From Acidovorax sp. DW039 (GTDB lineage Bacteria > Pseudomonadota > Gammaproteobacteria > Burkholderiales > Burkholderiaceae_C), in assembly GCF_037101375.1 (NCBI RefSeq), contig NZ_AP029019.1, positions 1,798,001-1,862,000 of the forward strand: a stretch of 64,000 nucleotides of DNA, read 5' to 3'. Shown piece after piece: positions 7,579-61,489 of this stretch. The stretch's first letter is position 1. The number at the start of each line of letters is the position of its first letter. Under the pieces are notes generated by a model, which was given only the letters and a program-made list of their open reading frames with translations, had not been told where the DNA came from and ran no database searches. Both the position numbers and the translations under genes were made by a program.

Positions 7579-8880
7579 ATGCAAGTATTCCGATCTGCCC
7601 TTTTGCGCTTTGCCGATGATGGCAAGGCCCTGTACGACCAGGACGGCCTGCTGGCCATCGCTCCTGATGCTGCAGGGCGCCAAAGGGTGGTCGCTGCGGG
7701 ATCGTGGGCTGCGCTGGCGCCGCAATGGGCGCAGCAGGGGGCCGTCACCCATCTGCCTGGGCGCATTCTGGCGCCAGGGTTTGTGGATCTGCATGTGCAC
7801 TTTCCGCAGACGGATGTGATTGGCTCGCCCGCCGATGGTCTGTTGCCCTGGCTGGAGAACTACACGTTTCCGCATGAGTCGCGCTTTGTTGAGCCCGAGT
7901 ACGCCAGCGAGGTGGCAGGGTTCTTTGTGGAAGAGTTGCTGCGCCATGGTGTGACCACGGCACTGGCGTTTGCCACATCGCACCCGGCGTCTGTGCATGC
8001 CCTGTTTGCCGAGGCCCAGCGCCGCAGTCTGCGGCTGGTCACAGGCAAGGTGCTGCAGGACCGCCACTCGCCCGACGGCGTGCGCGACGAGACGGAGCAA
8101 AGCCTGATTGATACCGAGGCGCTTATCCAGCGCTGGCATGGCGTGGGCCGCCTGGGTTACGCCATTACCCCCCGCTTTGCCCCCACCAGCACCCCCGAGC
8201 AGTTGCGCGGTGCGGGTGAGCTGGCTGCGCGCTATGGTGACGTGTGGATCCAGTCGCACGTGGCAGAGAACCTGGACGAAATCCGCTGGGCGCGCGAGCT
8301 GTTTCCCCGCTCGCGCAGCTATCTGGCGGTGTACGACGACTTTGGTCTGATGCGCGAGCGTGCGGTGTATGCGCACTGCATTCACTTCGACGATGCCGAC
8401 CGGGCATTGATGCACGAGCGCAAAACCGCTGCAGCCATCAGCCCCACCAGCAATCTCTTTCTGGGTAGCGGCTTCTTCGACTACGCCGGTGCGGATCGCG
8501 CCGGTTTCCGTTATGGCCTGGCCAGCGATGTGGGTGGGGGCACCAGTTTCAGCCCCTTCCACACCATGATGGCGGCCTATTACGTGGGGCGCGAGGGGCA
8601 GACCAAGACGGACCTGAGCCTGAGCCCGACCCAGCTGTGGTGGCAGCACACGGCAGGTGCGGCCCATGCCATGGGCCTGGGGGGCGTGGTGGGCAATCTT
8701 CAGCCCGGATGCGAAGGGGACTTCCTGGTGCTGAACCCCGAGGCTACGCCGCTGTTGGCGCGCAAGACGCGCCAGGCCAACAGCCTGGAAGAGCTATTGT
8801 TTGCGCTGATCGTACTGGGCGATGACCGGGTGATCGAACAAACCGTGATTTCTCAAGCAAAATACGCCCCTAGCGCTTGA
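7579..8880 (+). CDS. guaD: Guanine deaminase
   Basis: A 433-residue amidohydrolase that deaminates guanine to xanthine. Family marks are the zinc motif HVHFPQTD near residues 72-79, the stretch [23 protein letters not shown], and [11 protein letters not shown] near the C-terminal third. It completes the purine salvage block. The last codons (encoding AKYAPSA) and the TGA stop are contributed by a copy of the dispersed palindromic repeat, so the native C terminus has apparently been replaced or extended. Start is an ATG after a short leader without a strong ribosome-binding site. Confidence 0.93.
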
Positions 8881-8917
8881 TGTAAAAGCGCTACCAGCTA
8901 CATATTTCATAGCATAT
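8860..8917 (-). repeat. Dispersed palindromic repeat, copy 1 (overlaps guaD stop)
   Basis: A copy of the 50-60 bp family. The core CCCTAGCGCTTGATG pairs with AAAAGCGCTACCAGCT, and the end reads TTTCATAGCA. The family orientation here is the reverse of the copies at 21.2 and 43.3 kb. Its left part encodes the guaD C terminus and its TGA stop. Confidence 0.8.
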
Positions 8918-8971
8918 TGCCTGGCTTGCCGACTTGCAGCCGGGCAAGTGCTGCAGCGCAGGAGCCAACCG

Positions 8972-9544
8972 ATGAGTATCAAGAGCGACAAGTGGATCCG
9001 CCGCATGGCCGAAGACCACGGCATGATCGAGCCCTTTGAGCCAGGCCAGATTCGTGAGCGCGAGGGGCAGAAGATCATCAGCTACGGCACCAGCAGCTAC
9101 GGCTACGACATCCGCTGCGCCCCTGAATTCAAGGTGTTCACCAACATCCACAGTACGGTGGTGGACCCCAAGAATTTTGATGAGAAGAGCTTTGTGGATT
9201 TCCACGGCGACAGTTGCATCATCCCACCCAACAGCTTTGCGCTGGCCCGCACGGTGGAGTATTTCCGCATTCCGCGCAACGTGTTGACCATTTGCCTGGG
9301 CAAGAGCACCTACGCACGCTGCGGCATCATCGTCAACGTCACTCCCTTCGAGCCCGAGTGGGAAGGCTATGTGACGCTGGAGTTTTCCAACACCACACCG
9401 CTGCCCGCACGCATCTATGCAGGCGAGGGCTGCGCCCAGGTGCTGTTCTTTGAAAGCGACAAGGACGACGTTTGCGAGGTCAGCTACAAGGATCGCGGCG
9501 GCAAGTACCAAGGGCAGGTGGGCGTCACGCTGCCCAAGGCCTGA
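8972..9544 (+). CDS. dcd: dCTP deaminase
   Basis: A cytosolic enzyme of 190 residues that deaminates dCTP to dUTP for dTTP synthesis, of the usual family length. The N terminus [13 protein letters not shown] and the pattern [20 protein letters not shown] (around residues 110-130) with the downstream [11 protein letters not shown] are diagnostic. The start at 8972 was chosen because GGAG precedes it; the frame opens 24 bases earlier. It may be transcribed separately from guaD, since a palindromic repeat lies in the 91-bp gap. Confidence 0.96.
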
Positions 9545-9622
9545 GCGCTCACGGGCCGCTTCCAGGTGCGGCCAATACGATTCAATGAAGTGGCCCTGGC
9601 CAGACGTTCCGCCGCAACGGCT

Positions 9623-11347
9623 TTAAGCCTGCACCACCACCCGATTGCGCCCTGCGCGCTTGGCTTCGTACAGCGCCTCATCCCCCCGGCGCAGCAGGGC
9701 TGAACCCAGGTCGTCCATACCACGCAAGGTGGCTACCCCGGCGCTGATGGTGAAGTGCCCTGCCACCGGGTCACGCTGCTCACCAATGGCATCGACCAGT
9801 GCCTGGGCAATGGCGCGTGCGCCAGCAATGTCGGTGTCTTGCAGCAGCGCTGCAAATTCCTCACCCCCCAGGCGTGCCACCACGTCCGAATCCCGCAGGC
9901 GCTGCATCAGCGTTTGGGCCAGGCGCTGCAGTACATGGTCACCCGCCTCATGGCCGTAGGTGTCGTTGATCTGCTTGAAGTGGTCCACATCCATCGTGAC
10001 GATGGACAAAGGCCTGCCGCTGCGCCGCGCCAGTGCCAGTGCGTAAGCCATCTGCGCATCAAACCCTCGGCGGTTCAGCAGGCCTGTCAGGGGATCGCTG
10101 CGGGCCTGCAGATCCAGCTCGCGGTTGGCTTGCTCCAGCTGCTGCGTGCGCAACTGCACCTGCGCTTCCATGGCGCCGTGGGCAGTCAGCAGTCGCTGCG
10201 TCATGTCCCGCAGGGCGGAAGAAAGGCGCCTGACTTCCAGGCTGCTCTGGGCCGTGGGAATGGTCGCTTTGGGGTTCCCCGCTTCCAGATCCTGCGCAGC
10301 CCGCGCCAGCGTATTGAGGTCTTCGCTCAGCCGCCCCGCAGCCATCCACGCCAGCAGCGAGGTGACCACGGCGGCAATGAATCCACCCAGCAATGCCTTG
10401 TAGACCGCCTGCGTGGCCTCCGCAAAAGCAATGTCTACCGGCATGCGGGCCACGATGTGCCATCCCATATCGCTTTCTGCGCTGCGTGCCTGCAGCCGTG
10501 CGTGCGAGGTGAGGTAGCGTTGGCCATCGGCCCAGCGCACCACGGCGGTCTGGTCGGCCCGGGCGGTATCGCTGGGTACTTTGTAAAAACGCTCATCCGG
10601 CAGTTTCTGGCCCAGGCGCTGAAGCAGCGTTTGCTGGTCTGCGGGAGCGTGAATGAGCTGCCCTGTTTTATCGAAGATGAACACTTCCAGCTGATCCTGC
10701 CGCGCGTCCACGGGCATCAGCGTCTGGATCATTTCATTGACCCACTCCCAATAGCCGTGTACGCCCAGCACACCCACTGTTTTGCCGCTGAGGCGGATGG
10801 GCGCGGCAAAGTCCACAAAACGGTAGGGTTCGCCGCTTTTGCTGGGGGGCAGCAGGCTTTCAAGCAGCTTGGCGGGGTGGACATCTCCTACATGAGGACC
10901 CTTCAGACCCGCCTGAAACCAGGGGCGCTCCGACACGTTTTGCCCCAAGAGCATGTTGCCTGACGCCGCATGCACCACGCCCTGTGCATCGGTCACGCCC
11001 AACCACAGGCTTTGCGGGTGGATGGCCTGCTGGCGCGCCAGAAGCTGCAAGACCTGGGGGGAGTCCAGCCCACTTTTCCACAGCACTTCAGAAGACGCCA
11101 GCACCTGCACTTCACGCACCCTTTGGTACAGACCGGCTGCCAGCAGTGAGGCCGTAGCGTCCGCCAGGGTCTGCAACGAAGTTCCCACGTCGCGCTGGAT
11201 GCGGCGCTTTACCACCTCACCAAAACCGATGGACAGCAGCACAGAGAGCGCAACCACCAGGATGCCAAAGACCAGTGCAATCTGGGTGCGAAGGCTGCGC
11301 CCGGGCATGGACGGCAGTGGGAGTTGGAATGAAAAGATAGGCGGCAC
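9623..11347 (-). CDS. Membrane-bound diguanylate cyclase (Cache-HAMP-GGDEF)
   Basis: A 574-residue cyclic-di-GMP synthase. A membrane segment near residues 20-42 and a second near 320-340 enclose a periplasmic Cache-type sensor domain. HAMP and a C-terminal GGDEF domain follow. The active-site motif is GGEEF in the context ARLGGEEFAALL, and an RxxD inhibitory site (RDSD) lies five residues before it, so the enzyme should be active and product-inhibited. Internal Met 14 is an alternative start. It converges on dcd and diverges from the metallopeptidase gene. Confidence 0.92.
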   Translation of the reverse strand: MPPIFSFQLPLPSMPGRSLRTQIALVFGILVVALSVLLSIGFGEVVKRRIQRDVGTSLQTLADATASLLAAGLYQRVREVQVLASSEVLWKSGLDSPQVLQLLARQQAIHPQSLWLGVTDAQGVVHAASGNMLLGQNVSERPWFQAGLKGPHVGDVHPAKLLESLLPPSKSGEPYRFVDFAAPIRLSGKTVGVLGVHGYWEWVNEMIQTLMPVDARQDQLEVFIFDKTGQLIHAPADQQTLLQRLGQKLPDERFYKVPSDTARADQTAVVRWADGQRYLTSHARLQARSAESDMGWHIVARMPVDIAFAEATQAVYKALLGGFIAAVVTSLLAWMAAGRLSEDLNTLARAAQDLEAGNPKATIPTAQSSLEVRRLSSALRDMTQRLLTAHGAMEAQVQLRTQQLEQANRELDLQARSDPLTGLLNRRGFDAQMAYALALARRSGRPLSIVTMDVDHFKQINDTYGHEAGDHVLQRLAQTLMQRLRDSDVVARLGGEEFAALLQDTDIAGARAIAQALVDAIGEQRDPVAGHFTISAGVATLRGMDDLGSALLRRGDEALYEAKRAGRNRVVVQA

Positions 11348-11604
11348 GGTGGAGCAGTGCAGTGGGCGGTGTTGCGGGTGGTGTGCCCGCGTGGCTGCTC
11401 AGCACTGTACACAGTGTGTAGACAATTGGCAGTGTGGAATCCCGAAATCCGAAATCTGTTACGCATTGGCATGGCGCATGCGCGACAAAGCCAAAAATCT
11501 GCCGTATCTTGCGATGCCCTGGGTAGCCCGAGAGGGTTGCAAACAGGCTCTAAGATCACCAGCTTGCTAGATGACCCTGCACCGGACAGGGGCAGGAGGA
11601 ATGT

Positions 11605-12492: not shown

Positions 12493-12550
12493 AAGCTGAG
12501 GGCCGGTGACTGAGTGGGTAACCCCCTTAGTGCCATCGCCCAGGCACGAT

Positions 12551-12604
12551 ATGCCTCTGGCGCCCTTCGCATAAGCGCAGGATGCTATGTATTTAGTAGC
12601 AAAG
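12551..12604 (-). repeat. Dispersed palindromic repeat, copy 2
   Basis: The core reads GCCTCTGGCGCCC...ATAAGCGCAGGATGCTATG and ends AGTAGCAAAG, matching the family in reverse orientation. It lies in the 205-bp gap between the metallopeptidase and rhlE genes, which otherwise holds no recognisable gene. Confidence 0.75.
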
Positions 12605-12697
12605 TGCACTCGTATCCGCTTGCCAAGTCCCCTTTCAGGGGGCGCAAATTGCAAAAAAGTGCCTTCTAAGGCCTGCGGTGCGACAATAGAGGGCTAA

Positions 12698-14182: not shown

Positions 14183-14191
14183 TACGCAGAG

Positions 14192-14249
14192 AAAAAAGGG
14201 CCTAGCGCCCGTCTATTGAGCGCGAGCTGCTATCTAAAGAATAGCAATT
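14192..14249 (-). repeat. Dispersed palindromic repeat, copy 3
   Basis: GGGCCTAGCGCCC, then GAGCGCGAGCTGCTATC, then GAATAGCAATT match the family over its full length in reverse orientation. It begins ten bases after the rhlE stop. Confidence 0.8.
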
Positions 14250-14252
14250 AGT

Positions 14253-14280
14253 AAGGGCCACATCCATGTGGCCCTTTTTG
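14253..14280 (+). terminator. Rho-independent terminator after rhlE
   Basis: GGGCCACA and TGTGGCCC form an 8-bp stem around a TCCA loop, followed by five T residues. It sits between convergent rhlE and the end of the nos operon, and could serve both strands because a short A run precedes the stem. Confidence 0.82.
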
Positions 14281-14306
14281 TTGATGGGTCACGACGCACC
14301 TGCGCG

Positions 14307-18572: not shown

Positions 18573-21193
18573 CACACCAGCCCCGCCACGGCCTTGAGGG
18601 CCAGGAACAGCGCCGCGCCGATCAGCAGGTTCTTGAAGCCCACGTAGCTCAGCATGTCCATCACGCCGGCCACGCGGTACTGGCCCTGCCACCACGGGCC
18701 GTCCTTCACGTAGCGCTTGCCCGACAGGCGGATCAGCACCTCGTACACGCTCCAGCCAAACCACCAGCCGATGATGGCGCCCGACGACAGCGTGCCTAGC
18801 GCCGCCATCACCCAGGCCACGCTGGCCGCGAGTGCCAGCGAGAAGCCCGCGATCTGCAGGCCGCGGCGCGATGCCCAGCCTGCGCGGCTCCAGGGCCACA
18901 GGTGGTCCGCCAGTTCCAGGGCCACCCAGCGCAGGCCGGTGGCATCAGCCTTGTGCGCAGGCTGCGCCGGCGCGGTGGGCAGGCGCGGGTCCGGCCCCTG
19001 CGCGGCCTTGGCCGAGATCTGGTCTTGCACCGTGGCCGGGTGGATGGGGATGAAATAGCCGTTCTTGCCGATGGGCGTGATCTCCAGGCCGTCCTTCTCG
19101 CGGCGCTTGCGTTCCTTGGCCAGGGGCGGGCAGCCCTTGGTGTCGGTATAGAGCACCATGCAGTCCAGGCAGTGCAGGCATTCGCGGTGGTCGATGCGGC
19201 CGTCGGCGTCGATGGCCTGGGCGCCGCACCCGGTGGCGCAGGCCTTGCAGCTGTTGCAGTCCTGCTTGCGCTTGAGGCCAAACCAGCGGAACGTGCTGGG
19301 CATGGCCAGCGACGCGCCCAGCGGGCAGATGTACTTGCAGTAAGGCCGCTCGATGAAGATCGAAACGCCCAGGATGGCTGCCACGAACAGGCTGTAAGGC
19401 CAGGCCCGGTTGAGCACGCCCACCAGGAAAGTGGTCTTGAACGGCTCCACCTCGGCCAGCTTCTCGGCCGTGCCCATGGAGAACATGGACACCGCCAGCA
19501 AGCCGAAGAACACGGCGTACTTCACCCACTTGAGCCGGTCGTGCCACTTCTGCGGCAGCTGCGTCTGGAACCGCCTGAGGCCCAGGGTGCGCGCAATCTT
19601 GTAGATGCCCTCCTGCAGCGATCCGAACGGGCACATCCAGCCGCAGAACAGCCCGCGCCCGAACAGGAACACGGTGACGATGATGAAGATCCAGAACAGG
19701 AAGATGAACGGGTCGGACAGGAACAGCGACCAGGTCCACTGGAACAGCAGCGCATGGAACCAGGTCAGCACCTGCGTGATGGAGGGCTGCGCCATCTGGC
19801 TGAAGCCGATCCAGCCGATGCTGATGGCCCAGAAGCTGTACTTGAAGGCGTTGACGGGCCACTTGTTCTTGTGGGTGGAGCGGCGCGTGAGCGTCTCGCG
19901 CAGCGCGTACACCACCGTCACGGCCACCAGCAGCGCGGCGAAGAGCGCAATCTCCACGGCGCGGGTCTTCCACACGCGCACCCAGGGTGCGTCCGGCTCG
20001 TCGATGGTGGGGCGCCCGCCTTGCAGCAAGGCGGCGGGCAGCCAGTAGGGCGCGTCAAAGCTGGTGAAGCTGCGCGTGCCGGTAGCGCGGTCCACGCGGT
20101 TGCCCAAAAAGCTCAGCTGCCACGGATACGCGGCGGAGAACGCACTCGAGCGGATGATGAAGATGACCGACTCGTTGTAGCTGGGCGCGCCCGCGGCTTC
20201 GATGCCGTAGAGGTTGAGCGCGTCCAGGTCGCGGAAGGTGAATGCGTCGGCGCCCTGGTGCACCTGCACGCGGTCGTAGATGCCGCCGCGCACAAAGCCC
20301 GAACCCTTGAACGATTCCTTGCCGCCGGTGCGGATGATGAAGAAGGCGTGCTCGCCCTCCTTGAGCTGCTGGCGCAGGTTGTGCCAGCCGTTCTCGCCCA
20401 GCACGCTTTGGCCCAGGTCGGGGTGGTTCAGGTCGCCAAACCACAGTTCGATGAACGGCTCGGGGCCCTTGTCCAGGCCCACCTGTTCGGGCTGCACGCG
20501 CAGGCGCTGCACCGTGCCTTGCTGTACCAGCTCGGCCCAGGTCAGGCGCTTGCCGGTTTCGGCATAGCGGGCGGGCTCGCGTACCGTGGGCGCCAGGATG
20601 CCCACCTGCCGCGCCACGGCCGAGCCCGAGGCCATCATGACCTGGTTCTGCGCGATGACGGTGACCGTGGCGCCCGAGATGGCATCCAGGCCGATCACGT
20701 TCTCGTCGGGCCGCGACTGGCCGACCTCGATCTTGTCGGCCACCGACTTGCCCAGGTACTGCCCGTTGAACTTGAGCAGCGCCGATTCCGGGATGCCCAG
20801 CAGCAGGATGGGCTCGGAGTGCTTGAGCACCTTCACGCCCACAAACCGGCCGTCCTTGTCCATGCCGATCAGCGTGACCACCGGCTTGCCGGAATAGGCG
20901 GGCGTGTCGGTGATGTCGGTGGACAGCATCACGTAGCCCAGCAGCTTCTTCTGGGCACTGTCGTTGTCGTAGGCCTCCACATAGGGCGGCTGGCCTTTGC
21001 GCTCCGAAAAATGCGTGGCCCCGGGGAACACGTCCTTGCAGGGCACCAGTGCGCACAGATCGCGGGCCGTGGCCAGATCGGCAGGCAACTCCGCCTCGTA
21101 GGCCCCCGCCGCAGCATGCGCGCGCGGCGCCAGCCAAAGAGCTGCCAACAAGACCAGAAGAAGCGTGGCGAACTGCCGACGAAGGGAGATCAT
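18572..21193 (-). CDS. nosR: NosR, flavoprotein/Fe-S electron-supply and regulatory protein
   Basis: An 873-residue inner-membrane protein required for nitrous-oxide reduction. It has a signal peptide (residues 1-29), then a periplasmic FMN-binding domain with the flavinylation motif SGAT at residues 173-176. Several membrane segments and polyferredoxin-like cysteine sets follow: CGWMCPFG, CKYICPLG, CNSCKACATGC and CLHCLDC. The C terminus has two further hydrophobic segments and is longer than the roughly 720 residues I recall for Pseudomonas NosR. The FMN is presumably attached by the ApbE-like enzyme at 24615-25694. A palindromic repeat occupies its translation start region and no clear Shine-Dalgarno is present. 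Confidence 0.95.
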   Translation of the reverse strand: MISLRRQFATLLLVLLAALWLAPRAHAAAGAYEAELPADLATARDLCALVPCKDVFPGATHFSERKGQPPYVEAYDNDSAQKKLLGYVMLSTDITDTPAYSGKPVVTLIGMDKDGRFVGVKVLKHSEPILLLGIPESALLKFNGQYLGKSVADKIEVGQSRPDENVIGLDAISGATVTVIAQNQVMMASGSAVARQVGILAPTVREPARYAETGKRLTWAELVQQGTVQRLRVQPEQVGLDKGPEPFIELWFGDLNHPDLGQSVLGENGWHNLRQQLKEGEHAFFIIRTGGKESFKGSGFVRGGIYDRVQVHQGADAFTFRDLDALNLYGIEAAGAPSYNESVIFIIRSSAFSAAYPWQLSFLGNRVDRATGTRSFTSFDAPYWLPAALLQGGRPTIDEPDAPWVRVWKTRAVEIALFAALLVAVTVVYALRETLTRRSTHKNKWPVNAFKYSFWAISIGWIGFSQMAQPSITQVLTWFHALLFQWTWSLFLSDPFIFLFWIFIIVTVFLFGRGLFCGWMCPFGSLQEGIYKIARTLGLRRFQTQLPQKWHDRLKWVKYAVFFGLLAVSMFSMGTAEKLAEVEPFKTTFLVGVLNRAWPYSLFVAAILGVSIFIERPYCKYICPLGASLAMPSTFRWFGLKRKQDCNSCKACATGCGAQAIDADGRIDHRECLHCLDCMVLYTDTKGCPPLAKERKRREKDGLEITPIGKNGYFIPIHPATVQDQISAKAAQGPDPRLPTAPAQPAHKADATGLRWVALELADHLWPWSRAGWASRRGLQIAGFSLALAASVAWVMAALGTLSSGAIIGWWFGWSVYEVLIRLSGKRYVKDGPWWQGQYRVAGVMDMLSYVGFKNLLIGAALFLALKAVAGLV

Positions 21194-21197
21194 GGGA

Positions 21198-21251
21198 CTA
21201 TCTTTTTGATAGCTGCTTGCGCTTATTCATCAAGCGCTAGCGGCCAATTTC
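21198..21251 (+). repeat. Dispersed palindromic repeat, copy 4 (nosR leader)
   Basis: A well-preserved copy: TTGATAGCTGCTTGCGCTT, a short loop, then CAAGCGCTAGCGGCC and AATTT. It starts five bases upstream of the nosR start codon. Its outer bases also form a CTATC-TTTTT-GATAG mini-hairpin there. Confidence 0.88.
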
Positions 21252-21599
21252 ATTCAAATATCTATTTGCTCGGCTTTGAGGATCTGTCATTGCTGAGCGC
21301 CGCGCAGGGCTTCGACAAGCTCAGCCCGAACGGGTGGGGGAGAACAAACACACCAACTTCACAAGAAACGCGGCCTGCGCAACTGGCGCGCCCCAGGCGT
21401 GGGCAGCCGAGCAAGGGCCTAGCCGGCCGCGCCGCCCCGCAGCGAGGGCTGCGTCCCCCTTCCCGGAGCGCGAAGCGCGCAGAGAGAAGGGGCTGAGGGC
21501 CGCGGCTCCAAGCCTGCCTGCGCAGGCTTGGACGGTCCCGAAGAGCTGTCGCCTCTGGCGACCAGCACCGAGCGGTCGCGCCTCAGGGGGATCGCCTCA
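21252..21599. other. Non-coding nosZ-nosR spacer with hairpins and a second repeat type
   Basis: About 350 bp without a convincing gene separates the nosZ stop from the palindromic repeat upstream of nosR. It contains a TTCGACAAGCTCAGCCCGAA segment (about 21311-21330), which I recall as a widespread proteobacterial intergenic repeat. A perfect 10-bp hairpin, CCAAGCCTGC-CTGC-GCAGGCTTGG, lies at 21508-21531. Between them is a very GC-rich tract with further inverted repeats. It separates two genes usually adjacent in one operon. Confidence 0.6.
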
Positions 21600-27640: not shown

Positions 27641-30592
27641 ATGGCCGTTTCTTCCAAGCCGTCAGCTACCTCGTCTTTTGAGTCTCAGGGGCATGCATTT
27701 GCCCAGACCCTTCAGGGTTTTGAGACGACGTCTGGCAAGAAGGGAAAGTTTTATTCCCTGCCAGCCTTGGCAAAACAGTTTCCCCATATTCAGCGGCTGC
27801 CGGTTTCCATCCGCATCGTTCTGGAATCGGTGCTGCGCAACTGTGACGGACGCAAGGTCACTCCTGAGCATGTGGAGCAGCTCGCCCACTGGGCCCCGGT
27901 GGCCGAGCGCAAGGATGAGATTCCGTTTGTGGTGGCCCGTGTGGTGCTGCAGGACTTCACCGGCGTGCCCCTTCTGGCGGACCTTGCTGCCATGCGTAGC
28001 GTGGCCGCACGGTTGGGCAAGAACCCCAAGAAAATCGAACCGCTGGTGCCCGTCGATCTGGTGGTGGACCACTCCATCATGGTGGACCACTACGGCAAGA
28101 AGAATTCCATCGACCTGAACATGAAGCTTGAATTCCAGCGCAATAAAGAGCGCTACGAATTCATGAAATGGGGCATGCAGGCGTTCAATACGTTTGGCGT
28201 GGTGCCGCCAGGTTTTGGCATCGTGCACCAGGTCAACCTGGAGTACCTGGCACGCGGCGTACACAAGACGCGTGATGGCGTTTACTACCCCGACACTCTG
28301 GTGGGCACTGACAGCCACACGACCATGATCAACGGTATTGGTGTGGTGGGCTGGGGGGTGGGCGGTATTGAGGCCGAAGCGGCCATGCTGGGGCAGCCCG
28401 TGTATTTCCTCACGCCCGATGTGGTGGGTTTTGAACTGACGGGCCAGTTGCGCGAAGGAGTGACGGCCACCGACCTGGTGCTCACCGTGACCGAGATCCT
28501 GCGCCAGCACAAAGTGGTGGGCAAGTTTGTGGAGTTTTTTGGCGAGGGTACGCGCACCTTGTCCCTGCCGGATCGCGCCACCATTGGCAACATGGCCCCT
28601 GAATATGGCGCCACCATGGGCTTCTTCCCGGTGGACGAGAAGACGGTGGATTATTTCAAGGGCACGGGCCGAACCAAAGGCGAAATCGAGGCGTTTGAAG
28701 CCTATTTCCGCGCGCAAGGCTTGTTTGGAGTGCCTCAGGCCGGCGAGATTGATTACTCGCAGGTGGTGCGCCTGAACCTGGGGGATGTGACACCCAGCCT
28801 GGCAGGCCCCAAGCGCCCTCAGGACCGGATGGAGCTGGGAAAGGTCTCTGGCCAGTTTGCCGATCTGTTCAGCAAACCCAGCAGTCAGAACGGCTTCAAC
28901 CGCCCGGCAGAGCTTTTGCACACCCGGTACCACGTGCGGCCGGTGGAAGCGCCTGCCCAGCCCAGCGCTCAGCCAGAGGTGCCAGCGCCGTCAGGTGGCC
29001 CTCGCTTCCTGGTAGAGATGGAGCAGAACCGCCCCACCTTTGCGGCAGCCCATGCCGAAGTTCCTGCCAAAGAGGCGAGCCGTCCGGGCGATGTGACGAT
29101 TGGCAATGGCGATGTGCTGATTGCTGCCATCACCAGTTGCACCAACACCAGCAACCCCAGTGTGCTGTTGGCGGCAGGCCTGCTGGCCAAGAAGGCCGTG
29201 GAGGCCGGGCTCAAGGTCAAGCCTCACATCAAAACCTCGCTGGCCCCCGGTTCCCGCATCGTGACCGAATACCTGACGCAGACCGGCTTGTTGCCTTATC
29301 TGGAAAAACTGGGTTTTGCACTGGCAGGCTACGGTTGCACGACCTGTATCGGCAATGCGGGCGACTTGGCCCCCGAGCTCAATGACGCGATCACCGGCAA
29401 CGACCTGGTGTGTGCAGCCGTCCTTTCGGGCAACCGCAACTTTGAGGCGCGCATTCACCCCAACCTCAAGGCCAACTTTCTGGCGAGCCCGCCCCTCGTC
29501 GTGGCCTATGCGATTGCAGGCACCGTGCTCAAGGACCTGATGACCGAGCCCGTGGGCAAAGGCAAGGGCGGGCGCGATGTTTACCTGGGTGACATCTGGC
29601 CCAGCAGTGACGAGGTCAACCAGCTCATGCGATTTGCCATGAACGGCAAAGCCTTCCGCGACAACTACGCCAAGGTGGCGTCTGATCCCGGCAAGCTGTG
29701 GGAGAAGATCCGCGGTGTCAGCGGCAATGTCTACACCTGGCCTGCCAGCACCTACATTGCAGAGCCGCCGTTCTTTGCCCAGTTTGCTATGGAAACAGGA
29801 GCTGTTAGCGCAAGCGCTGCGGGCGTTGAGGCCCCTAAAGATGCGCAACTCCCCACTGTGCACGGCGCCCGCATCATGGCGCTGTTCGGAGACTCCATCA
29901 CTACCGACCATATCTCGCCTGCGGGGTCCATCAAGGAGAGCTCTCCTGCAGGCCAGTGGTTGCTACAGCACGGTGTGATGAAACAGGACTTCAACAGCTA
30001 CGGTGCCCGCCGCGGCAACCACGATGTGATGGTGCGCGGGACCTTTGCCAATGTGCGCATCAAGAACCTGATGATTCCGCCCAAGCCCGATGGGTCCAGG
30101 GAAGAGGGCGGTGTCACCCTCTTTCAGAGCGAGGGGCCGCTGCAGGGCGAGAAGATGTTCATCTTTGATGCAGCCATGCAGTACATGGCCAAGGGCGTTT
30201 CCACCGTCATCTTTGCGGGGGAGGAATATGGCACGGGCTCCAGTCGCGATTGGGCGGCCAAAGGCACACAGCTGCTGGGCATCAAGGCCGTGGTCGCTCG
30301 CAGCTTTGAGCGCATTCACCGCTCCAATCTGGTGGGCATGGGGGTGTTGCCGCTTCAGTTCCGCCCAGGGGATTCGTGGGAGTCTCTGGGCTTGACCGGC
30401 AGCGAAGTCATCGACGTGATTCCCGATCCGGCCTTGACCCCCCAAAGTGATGCCCAGCTGGTCATTCATCGGCCTGGCGGCGAGCGTGTGCAGGTGACGG
30501 TGACCCTGCGCATCGATACCCCTATTGAGGTGGATTACTACCGTGCTGGCGGCATCTTGCCCTTTGTGCTGCGCCAGCTCTTGCAAAGCTGA
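27641..30592 (+). CDS. acnA: Aconitate hydratase A
   Basis: A 983-residue TCA-cycle enzyme interconverting citrate and isocitrate through a 4Fe-4S cluster. Cluster ligands are in SCTNTSNPS and [10 protein letters not shown]. The substrate region [14 protein letters not shown] and the C-terminal swivel motif [16 protein letters not shown] are present. It is about 80-90 residues longer than the E. coli AcnA I recall. One extra stretch, rich in Ala/Pro/Gln, lies near residues 435-470. Another, residues 715-733, is encoded by a copy of the dispersed palindromic repeat. The reading frame is intact throughout, so the enzyme is probably functional. Confidence 0.96.
29783..29840 (+). repeat. Dispersed palindromic repeat, copy 5, in frame inside acnA
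   Basis: TTTGCTATGGAAACAGGAGC, then TGTTAGCGC and AAGCGCT, then GAGGCCCCTAAAG match the family over both ends. It is closest to the copy at 40940-40998. It encodes AcnA residues 715-733 without a stop, in the linker before the swivel domain. Confidence 0.75.
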
Positions 30593-36914: not shown

Positions 36915-38162
36915 ATGAAGAAGCAGGTATTGATTGCTGGCGGCGGCATTGGCGGCATGGCGGCTGCGCTGGCGGCATCGCGCGCCGGGTGGGATGTGCG
37001 GCTGTATGAACGGGTGGCGCAGTTTTCAGAAGTAGGGGCCGGGGTGCAACTGGGCCCCAACGTGGTGCGCTGCCTGCAGGCCTGGGGCCTGCAAAAGGCG
37101 CTGCAGCAGGTGGCGGCGTTCCCGGACAAGCTGCAGGTGCGCTGTGCACTCAGCGGCAAAGAGCTGGGCGTCTTGCCGCTTGGGCGCACTACCGTGCAAC
37201 GTTACGGCGCTGCCTATGCCACCATTCATCGCGCAGATCTGCATGGGCTGTTGCACGGTGGTGTGCAGCGCTACACCGATGCACAGCTGTACCAGGGCGT
37301 GGGCATCGAATCCTTTGCCGACGCCAGCGGCCAGGCAGGCCGGGCTGGTGTAGTGCCGGGCGCCGAAACGGTGGTCTCCGTGAGCACCACCGAGGGCAAG
37401 GAGATTGAGGGCGATGCGCTGATTGGTGCGGACGGCTTGTGGAGCCGCACCCGCTTGCTGCTGCTGGGCGCGCAGGCGCCGCGGGTCACGGGGCATCTGG
37501 CTTATCGCGCGCTGGTGCCGCAAAGCGCGCTACCCCCTTCGCTGCGCACCCGCCACGTCACGGCCTGGCTCGGGCCGCGGCTGCACATGGTGCAGTACCC
37601 CGTGCGCCGTGGTGAGCTGCAGAACCTGGTGGTCATTGTGCAGGGCCGGGCACCGGCCAACCTGGAGGAATGGGACCACGACGCCAATGCCCGCGACCTG
37701 GAAGCCGCCTTGCTGGGCACCAGCACCGCCTTGCAGCACGCCGTGCACAGCGTAGAAGCTGCAGGCCGTGGCTGGAGACTGTGGCCATTGTGTGACCGCC
37801 CACCTGTGCGCAGCGCCGACGACATGGCCCGGGGCCTGGTGGCCCTGCTGGGGGATGCCGCCCACCCCATGCGCCCTTATCTGGCCCAAGGTGCGGGCAT
37901 GGCGATTGAAGACGCCGCGCAGGTGGAGAGGGCCTTGTCCATGCATGACCTGGAAGTGCCCTTGCGCCTGCGTCGCTATGCCGTCAACCGCTGGCAGCGC
38001 AACGCGCGGGTTCAGGCCCGGTCCATCCGCAATGGGCGCATCTTTCATGCCACGGGGCCTGTGCGCTGGGCGCGCGATCTGTCGCTGCGGCTGCTGGGCG
38101 AGAAGATTCTTGATGTGCCCTGGCTTTACCGGGGCGATGGAATGGATCTGCACAGATCGTAA
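36915..38162 (+). CDS. FAD-dependent aromatic-ring monooxygenase family protein
   Basis: A 415-residue flavoprotein of the PHBH/salicylate hydroxylase family. It has the dinucleotide-binding motif IAGGGIGGMAAALAASRAGW at residues 6-25, the second FAD motif GADGLWSR, and GDAAHPMRPYLAQGAGMAIEDA-type sequence near residues 313-334. It probably hydroxylates an aromatic or heteroaromatic acid using NAD(P)H. The substrate cannot be read from the sequence. It converges with an MFS transporter gene. It is too distant from the kyn operon to be assigned to tryptophan degradation. Confidence 0.88.
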   Translation: MKKQVLIAGGGIGGMAAALAASRAGWDVRLYERVAQFSEVGAGVQLGPNVVRCLQAWGLQKALQQVAAFPDKLQVRCALSGKELGVLPLGRTTVQRYGAAYATIHRADLHGLLHGGVQRYTDAQLYQGVGIESFADASGQAGRAGVVPGAETVVSVSTTEGKEIEGDALIGADGLWSRTRLLLLGAQAPRVTGHLAYRALVPQSALPPSLRTRHVTAWLGPRLHMVQYPVRRGELQNLVVIVQGRAPANLEEWDHDANARDLEAALLGTSTALQHAVHSVEAAGRGWRLWPLCDRPPVRSADDMARGLVALLGDAAHPMRPYLAQGAGMAIEDAAQVERALSMHDLEVPLRLRRYAVNRWQRNARVQARSIRNGRIFHATGPVRWARDLSLRLLGEKILDVPWLYRGDGMDLHRS

Positions 38163-38175
38163 TGTGTGCTCCTCA

Positions 38176-38222
38176 ATTTATAGCTTGCTACGCACGGTAT
38201 ATAAGCGCTAGGGCCTATTTTG
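38176..38222 (+). repeat. Dispersed palindromic repeat, copy 6 (overlaps MFS stop)
   Basis: ATAGCTTGCTACGCACGG, then ATAAGCGCTAGGGCCTATTTTG match the family core. The CTA at 38208-38210 within it is the TAG stop of the minus-strand MFS gene. Confidence 0.75.
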
Positions 38223-39614
38223 GTCACCAGGTTCTGAGGGGCCGGGAAGCCAGCGAAACGCAGCAGCAGCTGCGGCAAGCAGACCCGCTATGGTGAGCAG
38301 CACCGCCGTATAAGGCTCCCAGCCCCACCCCGGCGCGGTGGTGGCAGCCATGCCGGTGATCCACTGCATGAGTGCAACTCCCAAAAACATGGCCATAGTG
38401 AAGAGTGACATGGCCCGCCCCGTCATGGATGCGGGGTAGGCAGACCTCACGTCGGCGTACTGCAGCACCATGTAGCCTGACAGCACGCCCACGGCCAGTG
38501 CCCCGGCTACGTTCAGCCATGCCACATGGCTCCAGCCCATGGCGGCAAACAAGGCTCCCATCAGCAGCGTCAAACCCACCAGCCAGCGGCGGCGGTGCTG
38601 GGGGCCTGGGTCCATGCGCCCAAAAAGGGCGGGGCTGAAAAGGGAAACCAATGACATCACCGTGGCCACATGCCCGCTGGCCACCAGCGTAAAGCCATGC
38701 CGTTCAATCAGCATGGGCCCCAGCCACAAACCGCGCAGCGTCAGCATCGAGGCATAGGTCATCAGCGCCAGCAGCATGATGCCCACCGTGTGAGGCAGCA
38801 AGAAGAGGGCCCCAAACCCCCTGGCCGCCTGTGCAATGGATTCTCTGGGCACATCCCCTGGGTGGATGCCGCCATGGGCCGGAAGGGCTTGCGGCTCCCG
38901 TACCTTCCAGTAAATCAGCACCCATGCCACCGTAGCCAATGCCGCCAGCACGCCAAAGCCGGTGCGCCACGACGATTGCTGCACCATCCACGCCAGTGGC
39001 GTGCCTGTGAACAGCATGCCCAGGCCACCCACCCCCATGGCTACCCCGGACACTGCGGCAAACTTTGCAGGCGCAAAGTACCTGGCGATGAAGACCGTGC
39101 AGACCAAAAAGGCCGGAGAGCAGCCCACGCCAATCAGCATCTGGCCCAGCAGCACCCACCCGTAACCCGGGGCCAGGGCAGAGAGGCCGGCGCCCGCAAT
39201 GGCCACCGGAAACACCACCAGCACCGTGCGACGAAGCCCATAGAGGTCGATCGCTATGCCCATGAACAGTTGCATGGTGCCAAACGCAAACGCAAAGGCC
39301 CCCGCGAAAACCCCCAGCGCCTGTGCCGACAGCCCAAACTCCGCCCGCAAACTGGTGGCCATGATGGAGGTGATGGTGCGGAATGCCTGGCTGAGTGCGA
39401 AGCCGCTGACCAGCACCAGCAGCATGGCCCAGGCCTGTTTGTTGCCCAAAACAGAACCGGGATGAGCGGGATCAGCCTTGCCAGCCGGGCCAGCCGGATG
39501 GGATGGCGTTGCATGCTCAGGTGCAGGCCCGGTGGTGGGGGCAGATGCAGGCGATATGGCGGACGACCTAGCGGGCGACCTGGTGGGTAATTGAGAAGCG
39601 TGGTTGGGCGGCAT
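38208..39614 (-). CDS. Major facilitator superfamily transporter
   Basis: A 12-helix inner-membrane transporter of up to 468 residues. MFS features include the loop following helix 2, DLYGLRRTVLVVF, and a charged central loop. The first 60 residues are a proline/alanine-rich tail without clear homology and the true start may be as late as 39425 (MLLVLVSG). The substrate is unknown. The final residues QNRP and the stop codon come from a copy of the palindromic repeat. It runs convergent to the FAD monooxygenase. Confidence 0.88.
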   Translation of the reverse strand: MPPNHASQLPTRSPARSSAISPASAPTTGPAPEHATPSHPAGPAGKADPAHPGSVLGNKQAWAMLLVLVSGFALSQAFRTITSIMATSLRAEFGLSAQALGVFAGAFAFAFGTMQLFMGIAIDLYGLRRTVLVVFPVAIAGAGLSALAPGYGWVLLGQMLIGVGCSPAFLVCTVFIARYFAPAKFAAVSGVAMGVGGLGMLFTGTPLAWMVQQSSWRTGFGVLAALATVAWVLIYWKVREPQALPAHGGIHPGDVPRESIAQAARGFGALFLLPHTVGIMLLALMTYASMLTLRGLWLGPMLIERHGFTLVASGHVATVMSLVSLFSPALFGRMDPGPQHRRRWLVGLTLLMGALFAAMGWSHVAWLNVAGALAVGVLSGYMVLQYADVRSAYPASMTGRAMSLFTMAMFLGVALMQWITGMAATTAPGWGWEPYTAVLLTIAGLLAAAAAAFRWLPGPSEPGDQNRP

Positions 39615-40861: not shown

Positions 40862-40939
40862 TAGCAGGTTGCAGACCAGCAGCACGCCCAAGCGCTCCTC
40901 GCCACAGAGGCAGGTGCGCAACGGCAGGCTGATACTGGT

Positions 40940-40998
40940 TTTGCTATAGAAAAAAGAGCTGCCAGCGCTTTTGTATCAAGCGCTGGCAGCTCTTTTGG
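40940..40998 (+). repeat. Dispersed palindromic repeat, copy 7, forming a bidirectional terminator
   Basis: TTGCTATAGAAA leads into a perfect 19-bp stem: AAAAGAGCTGCCAGCGCTT (40952-40970), loop TTGTATC, and its exact complement (40978-40996) ending in TTTT. It lies between convergent genes and has the A and T tracts needed to terminate both. Confidence 0.88.
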
Positions 40999-41038
40999 TT
41001 TGAAGACCGTGCTGTCGGTCTGTGGTGGCAGTGCTTAT

Positions 41039-43264: not shown

Positions 43265-43278
43265 GGTCTTTGATGGGT

Positions 43279-43337
43279 TTTTGCTTCTTTTTTGATAGCT
43301 GCCTGCGCTTGTGGGGTAAGCGCTAGCGGTCAAAAAC
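43279..43337 (+). repeat. Dispersed palindromic repeat, copy 8 (kynB-kynU spacer)
   Basis: TTTTGCTTCTTTTTTGATAG, CTGCCTGCGCTT, a seven-base loop, then AAGCGCTAGCGGTC. It fills most of the 103-bp gap between kynB and kynU and could modulate expression between the two genes. Confidence 0.85.
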
Positions 43338-43367
43338 GTTTGAAAGGCAGGCGTAGGGAGATGCGGC

Positions 43368-48890: not shown

Positions 48891-49811
48891 TCAACTCAGG
48901 CGACCGAGCAACAGGTACTCCATGAGTGCCTTTTGCACGTGCATCCTGTTTTCTGCCTCGTCCCACACTACGGATTGGGGGCCGTCGATCACCTCAGCTT
49001 CGACTTCTTCGCCACGGTGCGCGGGCAGGCAGTGCATGAAGAGGGCGTCGGGCTGGGCGGCGGCCATCATCTCGGCGTCCACGCACCAGTCCGCAAAGGC
49101 CTTTTTGCGGGCCTCGTTCTCGGCCTCGTAGCCCATGCTGGTCCACACGTCAGTGGTCACCAGGTCTGCACCTTTGCAGGCTTCCAGTGGATTGCTATAG
49201 AACTGATAGCTGCCTGCGCTTATTCCATGGGCGCCAGAGGCCAATTTTTCATCAATCTCGTAGCCGCGCGGTGTGCTTACGTTCACCTTGAAGCCCAGCA
49301 GCGAGGCTGCCTGCACCCAGGTGTTGGCCATGTTGTTGCCGTCGCCCACCCAGGCCACGGTCTTGCCTGCGATGGAGCCGCGGTGTTCGATGTAGGTGAA
49401 GATGTCGGCCAGGATCTGGCAGGGGTGATATTCGTTGGTCAGGCCGTTGATGACGGGCACACGCGAATTGGCGGCAAAACGTTCGATCTTGCTTTGCTCG
49501 AATGTGCGGATCATCACCAGATCGGTCATGCGGCTGATGACCTTGGCGCTGTCTTCAATCGGCTCGGCGCGGCCCAGCTGGCTGTCGCCCGTGGTCAGGT
49601 GCACCACGCTGCCGCCCAGCTGGTACATGCCCGCTTCAAAGCTCACACGGGTGCGGGTGCTGGCCTTTTCAAAAATCATGGCCAGGGTGCGGTCGGCAAG
49701 GGGGTGGTACTTTTCGTACGACTTGAACTTCTTCTTGATGATCGCAGCGCGCTCGAACAGGTAAGCGTATTCGTCAGCGGTCAGGTCGGTGAACTGCAGG
49801 TAGTGTTTCAT
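48891..49811 (-). CDS. argF: Ornithine carbamoyltransferase
   Basis: A 306-residue cytosolic enzyme that makes citrulline from ornithine and carbamoyl phosphate in arginine synthesis. Marks are FEKASTRTRVSFEAGM (carbamoyl-phosphate loop), MIRTFEQS, HPCQILAD and MHCLPAHRGEEV. Residues 188-207 (around EKLASGAHGISAGSY) are encoded by a copy of the dispersed palindromic repeat and look unlike the family at that loop. Start was set at 49811 (MKHYLQF), which follows argD by 36 bp, making an argD-argF operon. Confidence 0.95.
   Translation of the reverse strand: MKHYLQFTDLTADEYAYLFERAAIIKKKFKSYEKYHPLADRTLAMIFEKASTRTRVSFEAGMYQLGGSVVHLTTGDSQLGRAEPIEDSAKVISRMTDLVMIRTFEQSKIERFAANSRVPVINGLTNEYHPCQILADIFTYIEHRGSIAGKTVAWVGDGNNMANTWVQAASLLGFKVNVSTPRGYEIDEKLASGAHGISAGSYQFYSNPLEACKGADLVTTDVWTSMGYEAENEARKKAFADWCVDAEMMAAAQPDALFMHCLPAHRGEEVEAEVIDGPQSVVWDEAENRMHVQKALMEYLLLGRLS
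49191..49249 (+). repeat. Dispersed palindromic repeat, copy 9, in frame inside argF
   Basis: ATTGCTATAGAACTGATAGC, TGCCTGCGCTTATTCCATGG, then GCGCCAGAGGCCAATTTTT is a near-full-length member. It lies antisense to argF coding direction and encodes 20 residues without a stop. Confidence 0.85.
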
Positions 49812-53912: not shown

Positions 53913-54024
53913 GCATTTCCTCTCATCCCGCGGCGAGGGTTGCGCTGGCAGCCTGCGGAAGTGACTGGTAAATCCGCTGGTTTTGCAGCTTGACGCCGGG
54001 GGGCTCGCCCTCTAAAAATCCACC

Positions 54025-54876: not shown

Positions 54877-54891
54877 GGCGAGTCTTCGGTT

Positions 54892-55788: not shown

Positions 55789-55860
55789 GGTGCGGCGGGG
55801 AGTGCTCCCCAGTCTTCAATGCAGGCAGGGGCGGCATTGTAGTGGGGCGCTTTGGCCGCA

Positions 55861-56970: not shown

Positions 56971-57130
56971 GGAGGACGTAAAACAGTGGCTGAAAATTCG
57001 GCATGCAAGTTTCACCTGCATGGGGTGCGCAGTGCTGGATGCAAGCTCTGACGCAAGTGCCCGATGGTGCTGGTTTCGTGTGACCAATTCGTGACGTTTT
57101 GATGGCTGTCATCGCTTTGTCACCTCAGGG

Positions 57131-58084: not shown

Positions 58085-58123
58085 GAGCCAGAAAGGCGCC
58101 TGTCCTGGGCTTCTCGCGGGTGT

Positions 58124-59146: not shown

Positions 59147-59808
59147 GGCAAAGGGTTCCAGGGGGTGTCCATCTGGCGTGCGGTGCGCTCTGCCAGTGCC
59201 GGGCCTGCCAGTCGGCTGACCAGGTGGAGGCTCATGTCAATGCCTGCACTGATGCCTGCGGAGGTCACCAGAGAGCCCTGGTCCACCCACCGCACGTGCT
59301 CCTGCACGTCCAGCATGGGGTATTGCGCTCGCAGGTCCGCCAAGTCTTCCCAGTGGGTGGTAACAGTTCCGCCGCGCAGCACGCCTGCTGCCGCAAGGAT
59401 AAAGGCCCCCGTGCAGACCGATGCAGTGAGTTGCGCCGACTGGCTGGAACGGGCCACCCATTCCCGGGTCTGTGCACAGGCAGCGGCTGCATCCACCACG
59501 CCACCGGGCACGATGAGCACATCGGGCGCTGGGGCATGGTCAAAGTCAGCATCTGGTACGACCTGCAGCCCTGCCCGGGCGCGCACCGGGGCCAGACTGC
59601 GGGCCACGCACTGCACCTGGAAGAGGGGCGGACTCCCCGCTGACTGCCTTTGATGCATGCGGGTGGCAGCGGTGAACACTTCATAAGGGCCACCCAGGTC
59701 CAGAACTTCAATGTTGTCAAACACCAGGATGCTCACCTGCAAGGTGCGCTGGGGGGCGGCAAATGTCGGGTCGGTGGGATGGCGGTACGGGTTGGCAGGC
59801 AGGGACAT
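59143..59808 (-). CDS. DJ-1/PfpI family protein
   Basis: A 221-residue single-domain protein of the DJ-1/PfpI superfamily. The nucleophile elbow is ASVCTGAFILAAAGVL, with Cys near residue 130, and GGPYEVFTAATR and a terminal helix follow the family. It resembles isonitrile-hydratase-like or GlxA-type N-terminal domains without a helix-turn-helix. It may be an enzyme of the adjacent hydrolase pathway. Overlap with the regulator gene (ATGA) indicates coupling. Confidence 0.88.
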   Translation of the reverse strand: MSLPANPYRHPTDPTFAAPQRTLQVSILVFDNIEVLDLGGPYEVFTAATRMHQRQSAGSPPLFQVQCVARSLAPVRARAGLQVVPDADFDHAPAPDVLIVPGGVVDAAAACAQTREWVARSSQSAQLTASVCTGAFILAAAGVLRGGTVTTHWEDLADLRAQYPMLDVQEHVRWVDQGSLVTSAGISAGIDMSLHLVSRLAGPALAERTARQMDTPWNPLP

Positions 59809-59840
59809 GGGCGTCTTTCAATGGGGGCGGGCAGAGCGGC

Positions 59841-60608
59841 TCACTGCGCTTCAAATACATAGCGGGGATAAGTGTGGCGCGCTTGTTGGGCGGCAGACAA
59901 GTCGATATCTACCGTGCAGAAAGGCGCTTGGGCGGTGGTGCGTGCCAGCAATGCGCCGTCGGGGTCTATCACCCAGCCCGCACCGCCATAAGTGCCGTGC
60001 TCATCCACGCGGTTGGAAGACAGGCTGAATGCCCCCGCACGCGCCGCCGCCACGGTGCCCATGGCCAGCCATTTTTCGACTGTGGCGCGGGCTGTGGCAC
60101 GCGGGGTGATGATGGCTTGCACGCCTTGCTGGGCATAGCTGGCAAATGTGTCCAGAGCCCATAGCTCCGTGCAGATGTTGATGGCCATGGAATGGTCTGC
60201 AATATCGAGCGGCGGGAACGTGGCGTCACCGCGGTCAAACCATCGTGCTTCCCACCCTCCTGGCTCGTCGGGCAGGTAGAACTTGCGGCGCAGCCGCTGG
60301 TAGCCCCGCTGGGGCGTCCAGGCAAAACCCTCGTTGAATGGGCGACCACCGTCGGTCACAGGGCGTGCTCCCACCACACAGGCCACGCCAAGTTCTGGCA
60401 GACGCTGCATCCAGGCGTCGGTTTGTGCCACAGCGTCGTCCCAGCGTTGGGGGTCAAAGCGCTCGGCTTCCCACAGCGGTTCCACAAAGGCAAATTCGGG
60501 CAGTACCAGCAGATCGGGCTGTGCTTGCCTGGAGTGTTCACACAGGCTGTGCCATGCCGGTGCCAAGTTTGCAGGCTGGCTGGGCAGTTCGCAGACGGTG
60601 ACTCGCAT
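59841..60608 (-). CDS. Carbon-nitrogen hydrolase (nitrilase superfamily)
   Basis: A 255-residue enzyme of the nitrilase/amidase fold. The catalytic triad is visible as Glu in LVLPEFAFVEPL, Lys in YQRLRRKFYLPDE, and Cys in ICTELWAL. It hydrolyses an amide or nitrile. The start at 60608 (MRVTVCELP) was chosen, 17 bp after the isochorismatase-like gene. Substrate is not known. Confidence 0.9.
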   Translation of the reverse strand: MRVTVCELPSQPANLAPAWHSLCEHSRQAQPDLLVLPEFAFVEPLWEAERFDPQRWDDAVAQTDAWMQRLPELGVACVVGARPVTDGGRPFNEGFAWTPQRGYQRLRRKFYLPDEPGGWEARWFDRGDATFPPLDIADHSMAINICTELWALDTFASYAQQGVQAIITPRATARATVEKWLAMGTVAAARAGAFSLSSNRVDEHGTYGGAGWVIDPDGALLARTTAQAPFCTVDIDLSAAQQARHTYPRYVFEAQ

Positions 60609-60625
60609 GAGGGTACTCCCGGCCA

Positions 60626-61177
60626 TTAAGTCTGCAGTGCCTGTGCCACGGTGCACAGCGTGGCAAAGCGGCCTTGCAGCACAGTGGCAGTGCGCGTCTT
60701 GATGTCCTGCGCCTTCAGTACCTGCCCATCGGGTTGCACCATGTCCCAGGTGTGGGTGGCCTCGGTCACGTAGTCCACCTTCCAGCCCAGGTCCGAAGCG
60801 TGCCGTGCGGTGGTCTCGCAGCATTGCTCGGTGCGGATGCCGCTGATGATGATCTTGCCAATGCCCTGGCGCACAAGCCACACGTCCAGGCCCGTGCCTA
60901 CCAAGGCACTGTGGCGTGATTTGGTAAAAGTGGCGGCTGCCTCAAAGTGGACAAGTCCTTGCAGGGGGCGCACATGGCCCGAGGCCTGCGCAAAGGGGTT
61001 CTCAGGGTTGTCCGGCCCATCCGCATGAAACACCCGTACCACCGGAATCTGCCTGGCTTGGCAGCCTTCGATCAGCGCATTCTGGGCGGCGAGGTAATCC
61101 GCCAGACCCGCCTCGTTGAAAAAGGGGCGGTGGCGGAAGGATTCTTGAACATCGATCACTATCAGACAGGAATTCAT
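60626..61177 (-). CDS. Isochorismatase-family cysteine hydrolase
   Basis: A 183-residue enzyme of the isochorismatase/nicotinamidase fold. The catalytic Asp (D9 in VIDVQESF), Lys in FTKSRHSAL and Cys in RTEQCCETTARHA are present. It probably cleaves an amide such as a nicotinamide- or carbamate-like substrate. It heads the four-gene operon. No promoter is clear upstream, where a 312-bp gap contains a palindromic repeat. Confidence 0.92.
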   Translation of the reverse strand: MNSCLIVIDVQESFRHRPFFNEAGLADYLAAQNALIEGCQARQIPVVRVFHADGPDNPENPFAQASGHVRPLQGLVHFEAAATFTKSRHSALVGTGLDVWLVRQGIGKIIISGIRTEQCCETTARHASDLGWKVDYVTEATHTWDMVQPDGQVLKAQDIKTRTATVLQGRFATLCTVAQALQT

Positions 61178-61489
61178 GGTGCTGCTCTCAAAGTGGAGGG
61201 GGAATGACCATGATTGTGCGAGGCAGGTCTGAATGCCGCTGCACCTGTGACAGACAGGAATCCATCATTTTCAGACATTGTGCACCGCATGCTGTTCACG
61301 CTTCATGCCGGGATGGGGCCTGCCCAATCAGCACACCATGGATGCAGCGCGTAACCATGATGGATGCCAACCATCCTTGCCTGCAAAGAGTGGGTGAAGG
61401 AAGAGCTAATTCAAGTCCTGGCGCTTATGGATAAAGCGCAGGAAGCTATGAATTTGATAGTGAACTGTTGGCGGCTCAGAGTGAGCTGA
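61178..61489. other. Gap between the hydrolase operon and AI-2E-type gene
   Basis: A 312-bp stretch with no gene I can support. It contains copy 10 of the dispersed palindromic repeat at 61409-61461; I see nothing else of note. Confidence 0.6.
61409..61461 (-). repeat. Dispersed palindromic repeat, copy 10
   Basis: TCAAGTCCTGGCGCTTATGG, ATAAAGCGCAGGAAGCTATG, then AATTTGATAG match the family in reverse orientation. It lies between the hydrolase operon and the permease gene. Confidence 0.8.

Follow-up and report, generated by a model that had tools for sequence, protein, structure and literature searches.

The described repeats closest to the one treated here are the REPINs, which persist over long periods as hundreds of dispersed copies of an inverted doublet hairpin, with a single gene of the class of the repetitive extragenic palindromic (REP)-associated tyrosine transposases (RAYTs) in most genomes (PMC3116915, PMC2817692, PMC8049555). 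The REPs themselves are palindromes with a conserved tetranucleotide, the 5' GT[AG]G tag, at the foot of the stem, and their copies can lie in-frame within genes (PMC6006769). The Beta-proteobacterial repeat element (BRE) of Bordetella and Comamonadaceae is described in PMC3110155 as a sequence of ~90 bp and 69% G+C, often in tandem and in at most 29 copies, some of them in genes. The stretch analysed here, 64,000 nucleotides of Acidovorax sp. DW039 (contig NZ_AP029019.1, positions 1,798,001 to 1,862,000; hereafter the window), carries ten copies of a palindromic repeat of about 66 bp, and was compared with other genomes (G numbers) and other DNA stretches (L numbers). The repeat family is real, old, widespread and undescribed within reach of our literature search, being REPIN-like but without the canonical tag. 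With a little more confidence than doubt, we lean towards the view that it is an ancient REPIN-like family of the Comamonadaceae, kept rather than freshly jumping.

The family shares with the REPINs the hundreds of dispersed copies, the inverted doublet hairpin (in a long form of the repeat), the single RAYT-class gene in most genomes and the long persistence, and with the REPs the palindrome with a conserved tetranucleotide at the foot of the stem and copies that can be located in genes, a trait that the BRE has as well. It differs from the REPINs in lacking a consistent GTAG tag, in the one-sided form present in its own genome, in RAYT loci that are not rich in copies and in copies that lie within genes without net insertion. 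Identity with the BRE was rejected on its published description (PMC3110155), the present repeat being 66 bp long, dispersed and mostly of 36-58% G+C per copy. No description of this 66-bp family was found in the open-access literature (a body without most subscription journals or any bioRxiv preprints), and six beta-proteobacterial names looked for in PMC3733652 did not appear there.

The repeat unit and its abundance

The preliminary description of the window had reported ten dispersed copies of one repeat, and this observation is confirmed at all ten places. A covariance model trained on the ten copies (R1) recovered them at 43.8-68.5 bits, and an independent position matrix, trained on 49 copies of the same genome all located outside the window, scored them at 20.9-72.6, the top score across a null of 100 order-1 Markov windows being 1.5. 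The R1 search returned 21 rows in all; of the other 11, eight read these copies again on the opposite strand (10.9-32.3 bits) and three reached no more than 8.4 bits. The start positions first listed fall within 11 bases of the matrix-based ones.

Alignment of 59 own-genome copies with their flanks (copies scored with a different length being left out of the logo) revealed a gapless, sharp-edged unit of ~66 bp whose length is fixed (model positions 8-73) and which has about 57 informative positions. The unit reads TTTGCTAT, nine bases, AGCTGCYTGCGCTT, a loop of seven bases, AAGCGCTAGAGSC, two bases, WTTT and then a weaker tail. The palindromic plan originally drawn is corrected in its length, from 50-60 bp to the fixed ~66 bp, and in its loop, from 5-8 bases to seven, and the shared sequence reaches well past the generic GCGCTT/AAGCGC core. 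The repeat is A+T-richer than the genome.

An unbiased sample of 20 spread 20-kb stretches (400 kb) contained 43 copies scoring 25 bits or more, or approximately one per 9.3 kb, after 8 opposite-strand duplicates, 10 window rows and 3 rows below 25 bits were dropped from 64; extrapolation gives ~560 copies per 5.2 Mb genome. A direct search of the genome yielded at least 150 matches, all of the 150 candidates scored being positive (150/150), and the number of copies in the genome is far above that expected by chance. The density of about one copy per 6 kb initially proposed holds for the window (1 per 6.4 kb), which is denser than the genome at large.

Within the genus, 17 of 18 other genomes matched (E up to 1e-9), 16 of them with at least 35 matches and G005 with two, G002 having none. 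At the same threshold none of 12 genomes belonging to the order but to other families gave a match. The search of the family, performed with stricter filters and with at most 32 candidates scored per genome, found the repeat in 46 of 150 genomes. Among the matches listed in a further scan were Acidovorax, Comamonas, Simplicispira, Diaphorobacter, Alicycliphilus, Giesbergeria, Rhodoferax, Extensimonas and Paenacidovorax, together with bins titled only Comamonadaceae, Burkholderiaceae, Burkholderiales, Gammaproteobacteria or Proteobacteria; Acidovorax and Comamonas belong to the Comamonadaceae, and the other seven named genera were assigned to this family on look-up. G149, a genome of another genus, had 48 copies in 300 kb after removal of six opposite-strand rows. 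The best long alignments of the own sequence among named overlapping loci were to Acidovorax temperans (85.7-93.5% over 0.7-4.8 kb). A plasmid search with copy 9 gave no match, and six viral contigs (L281-L286) were seen to bear the exact core of the repeat, in seven copies altogether. G+C content is not supported as the cause of repeat loss, G001 (67.0%) and G033 (69.2%) being copy-rich while G005 (66.8%) and G002 (66.3%) are not, with figures taken from the argF and/or earP loci only.

Table 1. Repeat copies in the 64-kb window (positions in window coordinates).
Copy	Position	Strand	R1 score (bits)	Matrix score	Context
1	8852..8924	-	68.5	63.1	Overlaps 3' end (stop codon) of + gene ending at 8880
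2	12539..12611	-	61.2	51.1	Gap between two + genes
3	14184..14256	-	56.9	50.3	Gap of convergent gene pair
4	21186..21258	+	62.8	68.3	Gap between two - genes
5	29775..29847	+	43.8	20.9 (weakest)	Within aconitase gene 27641-30592, + (Pfam Aconitase)
6	38157..38229	+	52.4	47.5	Between convergent genes, overlaps both ends
7	40932..41004	+	65.8	62.9	Between convergent genes; near-perfect long hairpin, TTTT end
8	43272..43344	+	61.9	57.0	Between two - genes; site filled in 15 relatives, empty in G005
9	49183..49255	+	66.5	72.6 (best consensus match in window)	Within argF 48891-49811, - (Pfam OTCace)
10	61400..61472	-	59.7	65.1	Gap between two - genes

In copy 7, as in L034:11476-11547 and L048:2263-2328, the two halves pair almost fully and are accompanied by a T run, and these sequences read as ordinary terminators.

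Long and short forms and the RAYT gene

Some of the G149 matches, of ~113 bases, are inverted doublets. An exact doublet pattern was present in 10 of the 150 family genomes (1 to 24 per genome), all ten being R1-positive, and its reversed control pattern in none of the 150; the exact long-form pattern is missing from the own genome, which has the short form only. Comparison of 40 long copies showed a core of 76 bp in 38 and 75 bp in two; the symmetry extends as far as the GCTAT at either end, giving an overall length of ~105 bp. This long form is made of two inverted half-units (GCTAT, nine bases, AGCTGCYNGCGCTTG) flanking a structured spacer, and thereby presents the defining REPIN arrangement, two inverted units joined as one hairpin in many copies, in those ten genomes. 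The short form has the left half of the long form and a loop of 7 bases; its right half is worn, although in G149 the likeness to an inverted left half is still recognisable. We infer that the short form is a long form whose spacer was lost by internal deletion. The tetranucleotide before the stem is mostly ATAG (41/59 short copies, 33/80 long half-sites), whereas the GTAG of canonical REPs occupies 12/59 and 1/80, respectively.

The preliminary description had left the choice open between a REP-like element and a miniature inverted-repeat transposable element (MITE), an interpretation that is partly supported. Its REP-like, maintained character agrees with the hundreds of copies, the dyad symmetry, the symmetric two-half form in other genera, the presence of a RAYT gene and the sites shared across the genus. 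The MITE alternative gains no support from target-site duplications, none of which was consistent in 59 short copies or in 38 long copies, where the best 4-bp excess was 3/38 at one of several hundred offsets. A relic of a DDE-type MITE, that is, a non-autonomous palindromic transposon whose movement has ceased and whose shared positions are old insertions, would account for the inverted halves and constant length of the long form and for the clean presence or absence of copy 8 among relatives (see below). We nevertheless hold it quite improbable given the missing duplications, the conservation at the single site of copy 8, which follows the motif, and the unchanged net length of argF and of site 1 in earP.

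As to the enzyme, the own genome encodes two Y1_Tnp genes, both matching the REP-associated tyrosine transposase family just below its cut-off (78 and 72 against 80 bits). One of them lies directly upstream of gltB, the same neighbour as in the other RAYT loci read. Of 38 loci examined in the 3' flank of the RAYT gene, 10 have their best family match starting 1-8 bases past the stop codon on the minus strand, and such post-stop matches, scoring 5 to 48, come from seven genomes that represent six genera. In 36/38 loci the stop is followed by a TGTCCC box. Near-constant boxes (TGTCCC, then TCTGACCCC) flank the gltB-linked RAYT past its stop codon in most of L121-L160, and resemble the termini of a once-mobile unit. 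In G040 a 55.6-bit copy sits just ahead of the Y1 domain. The twenty Y1_Tnp match rows of G045, several identically scored, suggest a multicopy IS200-type element.

Shared sites, gene context and the origin of the copies

Twenty pieces from 18 relatives were used for site comparison. The copy-8 site was filled in 15 pieces and empty in G005 alone, the rest being without a flank, and 12 of the 16 comparisons made give G005 a gap that is shorter by 60-72 bp. The argF copy was present in 16 other pieces, with its weakest version in G002 (30 bits); the argF of G005 lacks 12 bp and no longer carries the motif. Site 1 of earP in G002 has kept its length with an eroded motif. Where the two genomes could be compared (argF, earP), G002 displays erosion in place and G005 absence. 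A site near window position 47.5 kb is filled in 6-7 relatives and holds a degraded version of about equal length in the own genome, the site at L079:9847 varies among relatives, and copy 7 has no counterpart in the two alignable relatives. At the sites compared, the positions are held in common through descent across the genus, and new copies look rare. Moreover, at copy 8 the columns conserved among paralogues are better conserved among species (0.86 vs 0.73), and the own copy is nearer its orthologues (0.74) than its paralogues (0.62), a pattern that we read, for this one site, as upkeep in place and not homogenisation.

Placement was studied in 78 own-genome copies (53 unbiased plus 25 best-scoring), with open reading frames (ORFs) called by our own script. 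Twelve copies lay inside ORFs, 40 between co-directional, 20 between convergent and four between divergent genes, and two at a stretch edge, against background gaps of at least 40 bp numbering 204 (co-directional), 40 (convergent) and 42 (divergent). Convergent gaps were enriched (20/64 copies vs 40/286 background, p 0.002, Fisher test), and divergent ones were fewer without reaching significance (4/64 vs 42/286, p 0.10, Fisher test). The enrichment between convergent genes and the likeness of some copies to full terminators (copy 7, L034:11476-11547) would suit an element acting as RNA, either a terminator or a stabiliser of mRNA 3' ends. This possibility appears decidedly unlikely, as copies show no orientation preference with respect to co-directional genes (22 same, 18 opposite), lie on either strand of coding sequences and display no covariation, and the window has no Rfam match at gathering score.

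The reading that we favour, a kept REPIN-like family, builds on the several hundred copies located mostly in short gaps at gene ends, with convergent pairs favoured. Under this reading, the repeat would have spread long ago as hairpin DNA, perhaps mobilised by the RAYT whose gene stands beside gltB and, in several genera, has a worn copy directly behind its stop codon, and the 66-bp form would have arisen from the ~105-bp form through spacer loss. Spread would be rare today, and copies may be kept for a service at gene ends in either orientation, candidate roles, of the kind proposed for REPs, being a read-through barrier, the shaping of mRNA ends, or a site concerned with the nucleoid or with topology.

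Several observations weigh against this reading. The Y1_Tnp gene is found in 70 of 80 genomes whether or not the repeat is present, G170 being copy-rich without a Y1_Tnp hit and G002 copy-free with one, and 40 RAYT loci (220 kb) contain 10 copies, a density not above that elsewhere. Neither of the two own-genome RAYT loci has a copy within ~5 kb. The RAYT as keeper of the repeat is not supported, as it neither predicts the genomes with copies nor attracts them; the transposase gene whose presence the preliminary description had proposed to check does exist, and the outcome of that check is mixed to negative. A match above 5 occurs at 7/38 of the RAYT 3' ends, and since 10% of background windows also exceed this value there is no clear enrichment by that measure and the link of the repeat to the RAYT 3' end is suggestive only. 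The GTAG tag occurs in a minority of copies only. In addition, no base-pair covariation above shuffles was detected in 66 distinct own copies or in 16 copy-8 orthologues (two of the latter have a paired C-G swap by eye), and structure-level selection was set aside because no covariation measure exceeds shuffles. Finally, the motif-bearing ArgF protein aligns without a gap to the motif-free orthologues of G034, G040, G117 and G048 (loci of G102, G165, G033, G101, G045, G037, G050, G043, G051 and G053 were left out of this comparison), and the earP motif spans residues 89-113, where the motif-free orthologues of G048 and G054 are of equal length.

The argF and aconitase genes host the two in-gene copies of the window. 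At the ArgF motif spot, the structure 4f2g is three residues and 4oh7 one residue shorter, and the Pseudomonas EarP is four residues shorter at its own. As a caution, the equal-length, motif-free orthologues might descend from motif-bearing ones, but the differences from the shorter structures amount to 1-4 residues and not to 22. Aligned with motif-free orthologues, the argF copy and one earP site occupy homologous codons and add no net length, a situation left unexplained by simple transposition. In earP, R1 matches site 1 in 17 of 30 loci (19-52 bits; E up to 0.1), covering nine genera other than the own one, and a second site, in opposite orientation, in 13/30 (E up to 0.1), the latter accompanied in part by extra residues. 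The in-gene copy of the aconitase gene comes with ~15 extra residues and that of YfiH with ~31, located in an unaligned stretch, while a further case, CysN, points neither way.

Templated replacement is one mechanism that could operate at such codons: a single-stranded hairpin copy would pair with a weakly similar stretch, for example at a replication fork, and overwrite it in a recombineering-like manner. If true, it would produce near-consensus argF and earP copies at unchanged protein length, without target duplication and with a fixed unit length, and in a lineage deprived of some required factor the copies would decay where they lie, as seems to be the case in G002. The best-scoring copies do run with the replication fork (100-107/149, depending on terminus placement), but this bias is absent from the unbiased sample (29/52) and from G149 (80-83/150). 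Fork orientation was for that reason dropped as a property of the family, and templated replacement is rated less likely, so that we give it a slim chance.

Another explanation is a selected double-stranded DNA site, in which a protein involved in chromosome organisation or DNA uptake would bind the motif and copies would arise or improve by point changes. The uptake sequences of Haemophilus and Neisseria behave in this way, having many copies in and between genes, on existing codons, that arise or improve in place by point changes. This explanation would fit the presence of the motif on homologous argF and earP codons with no net gain in length over motif-free orthologues, the conservation of bases rather than pairing, the occurrence in both orientations in and between genes, and the near-total absence from two lineages of the genus. 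However, the ~57 informative positions far exceed the need of a binding site and, like the existence of the symmetric long form, point to copying; moreover, presence and absence at copy 8 differ by about one unit length. Compared with uptake sequences, the present motif is much longer and has a long symmetric form. Overall, we regard a selected DNA site as unlikely, though not negligible.

Neighbouring repeats and significance of the family

Two other palindromic repeats were encountered. A separate non-coding near-palindrome of 0.8-1 kb, with arms ~78% alike, lies between convergent genes (L045:15820-16840 and L035:10846-11876, own genome); it occupies eight own-genome places, matches 11 of 21 genomes searched and has relatives in L053-L072. 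Copies of the 66-bp repeat were located at one or both sides of this inverted repeat in 14/20 loci, the AAGCGC end facing outward, with one more overlapping, ambiguous match in L071. A 32-bp repeat (GTTCGGGCTGAGC..TGTCGAAGC), which occurs singly or as an inverted pair, is found at window positions 21308-21339, in L028 and in L042, and in its paired form in L080, L081, L083, L085, L089 and L092. At one gap, some relatives have this repeat and others do not. The 32-bp element is probably a separate and more changeable palindromic repeat.

The 66-bp family represents an abundant repeat in a large group of environmental bacteria. The argF and earP copies, found at a protein length unchanged from that of motif-free orthologues, question an insertion-only spread of repeats of this kind. 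The genus also offers a natural experiment, with 16 copy-rich genomes set against two near-empty ones, and a comparison of their gene content could reveal the keeper of the repeats.

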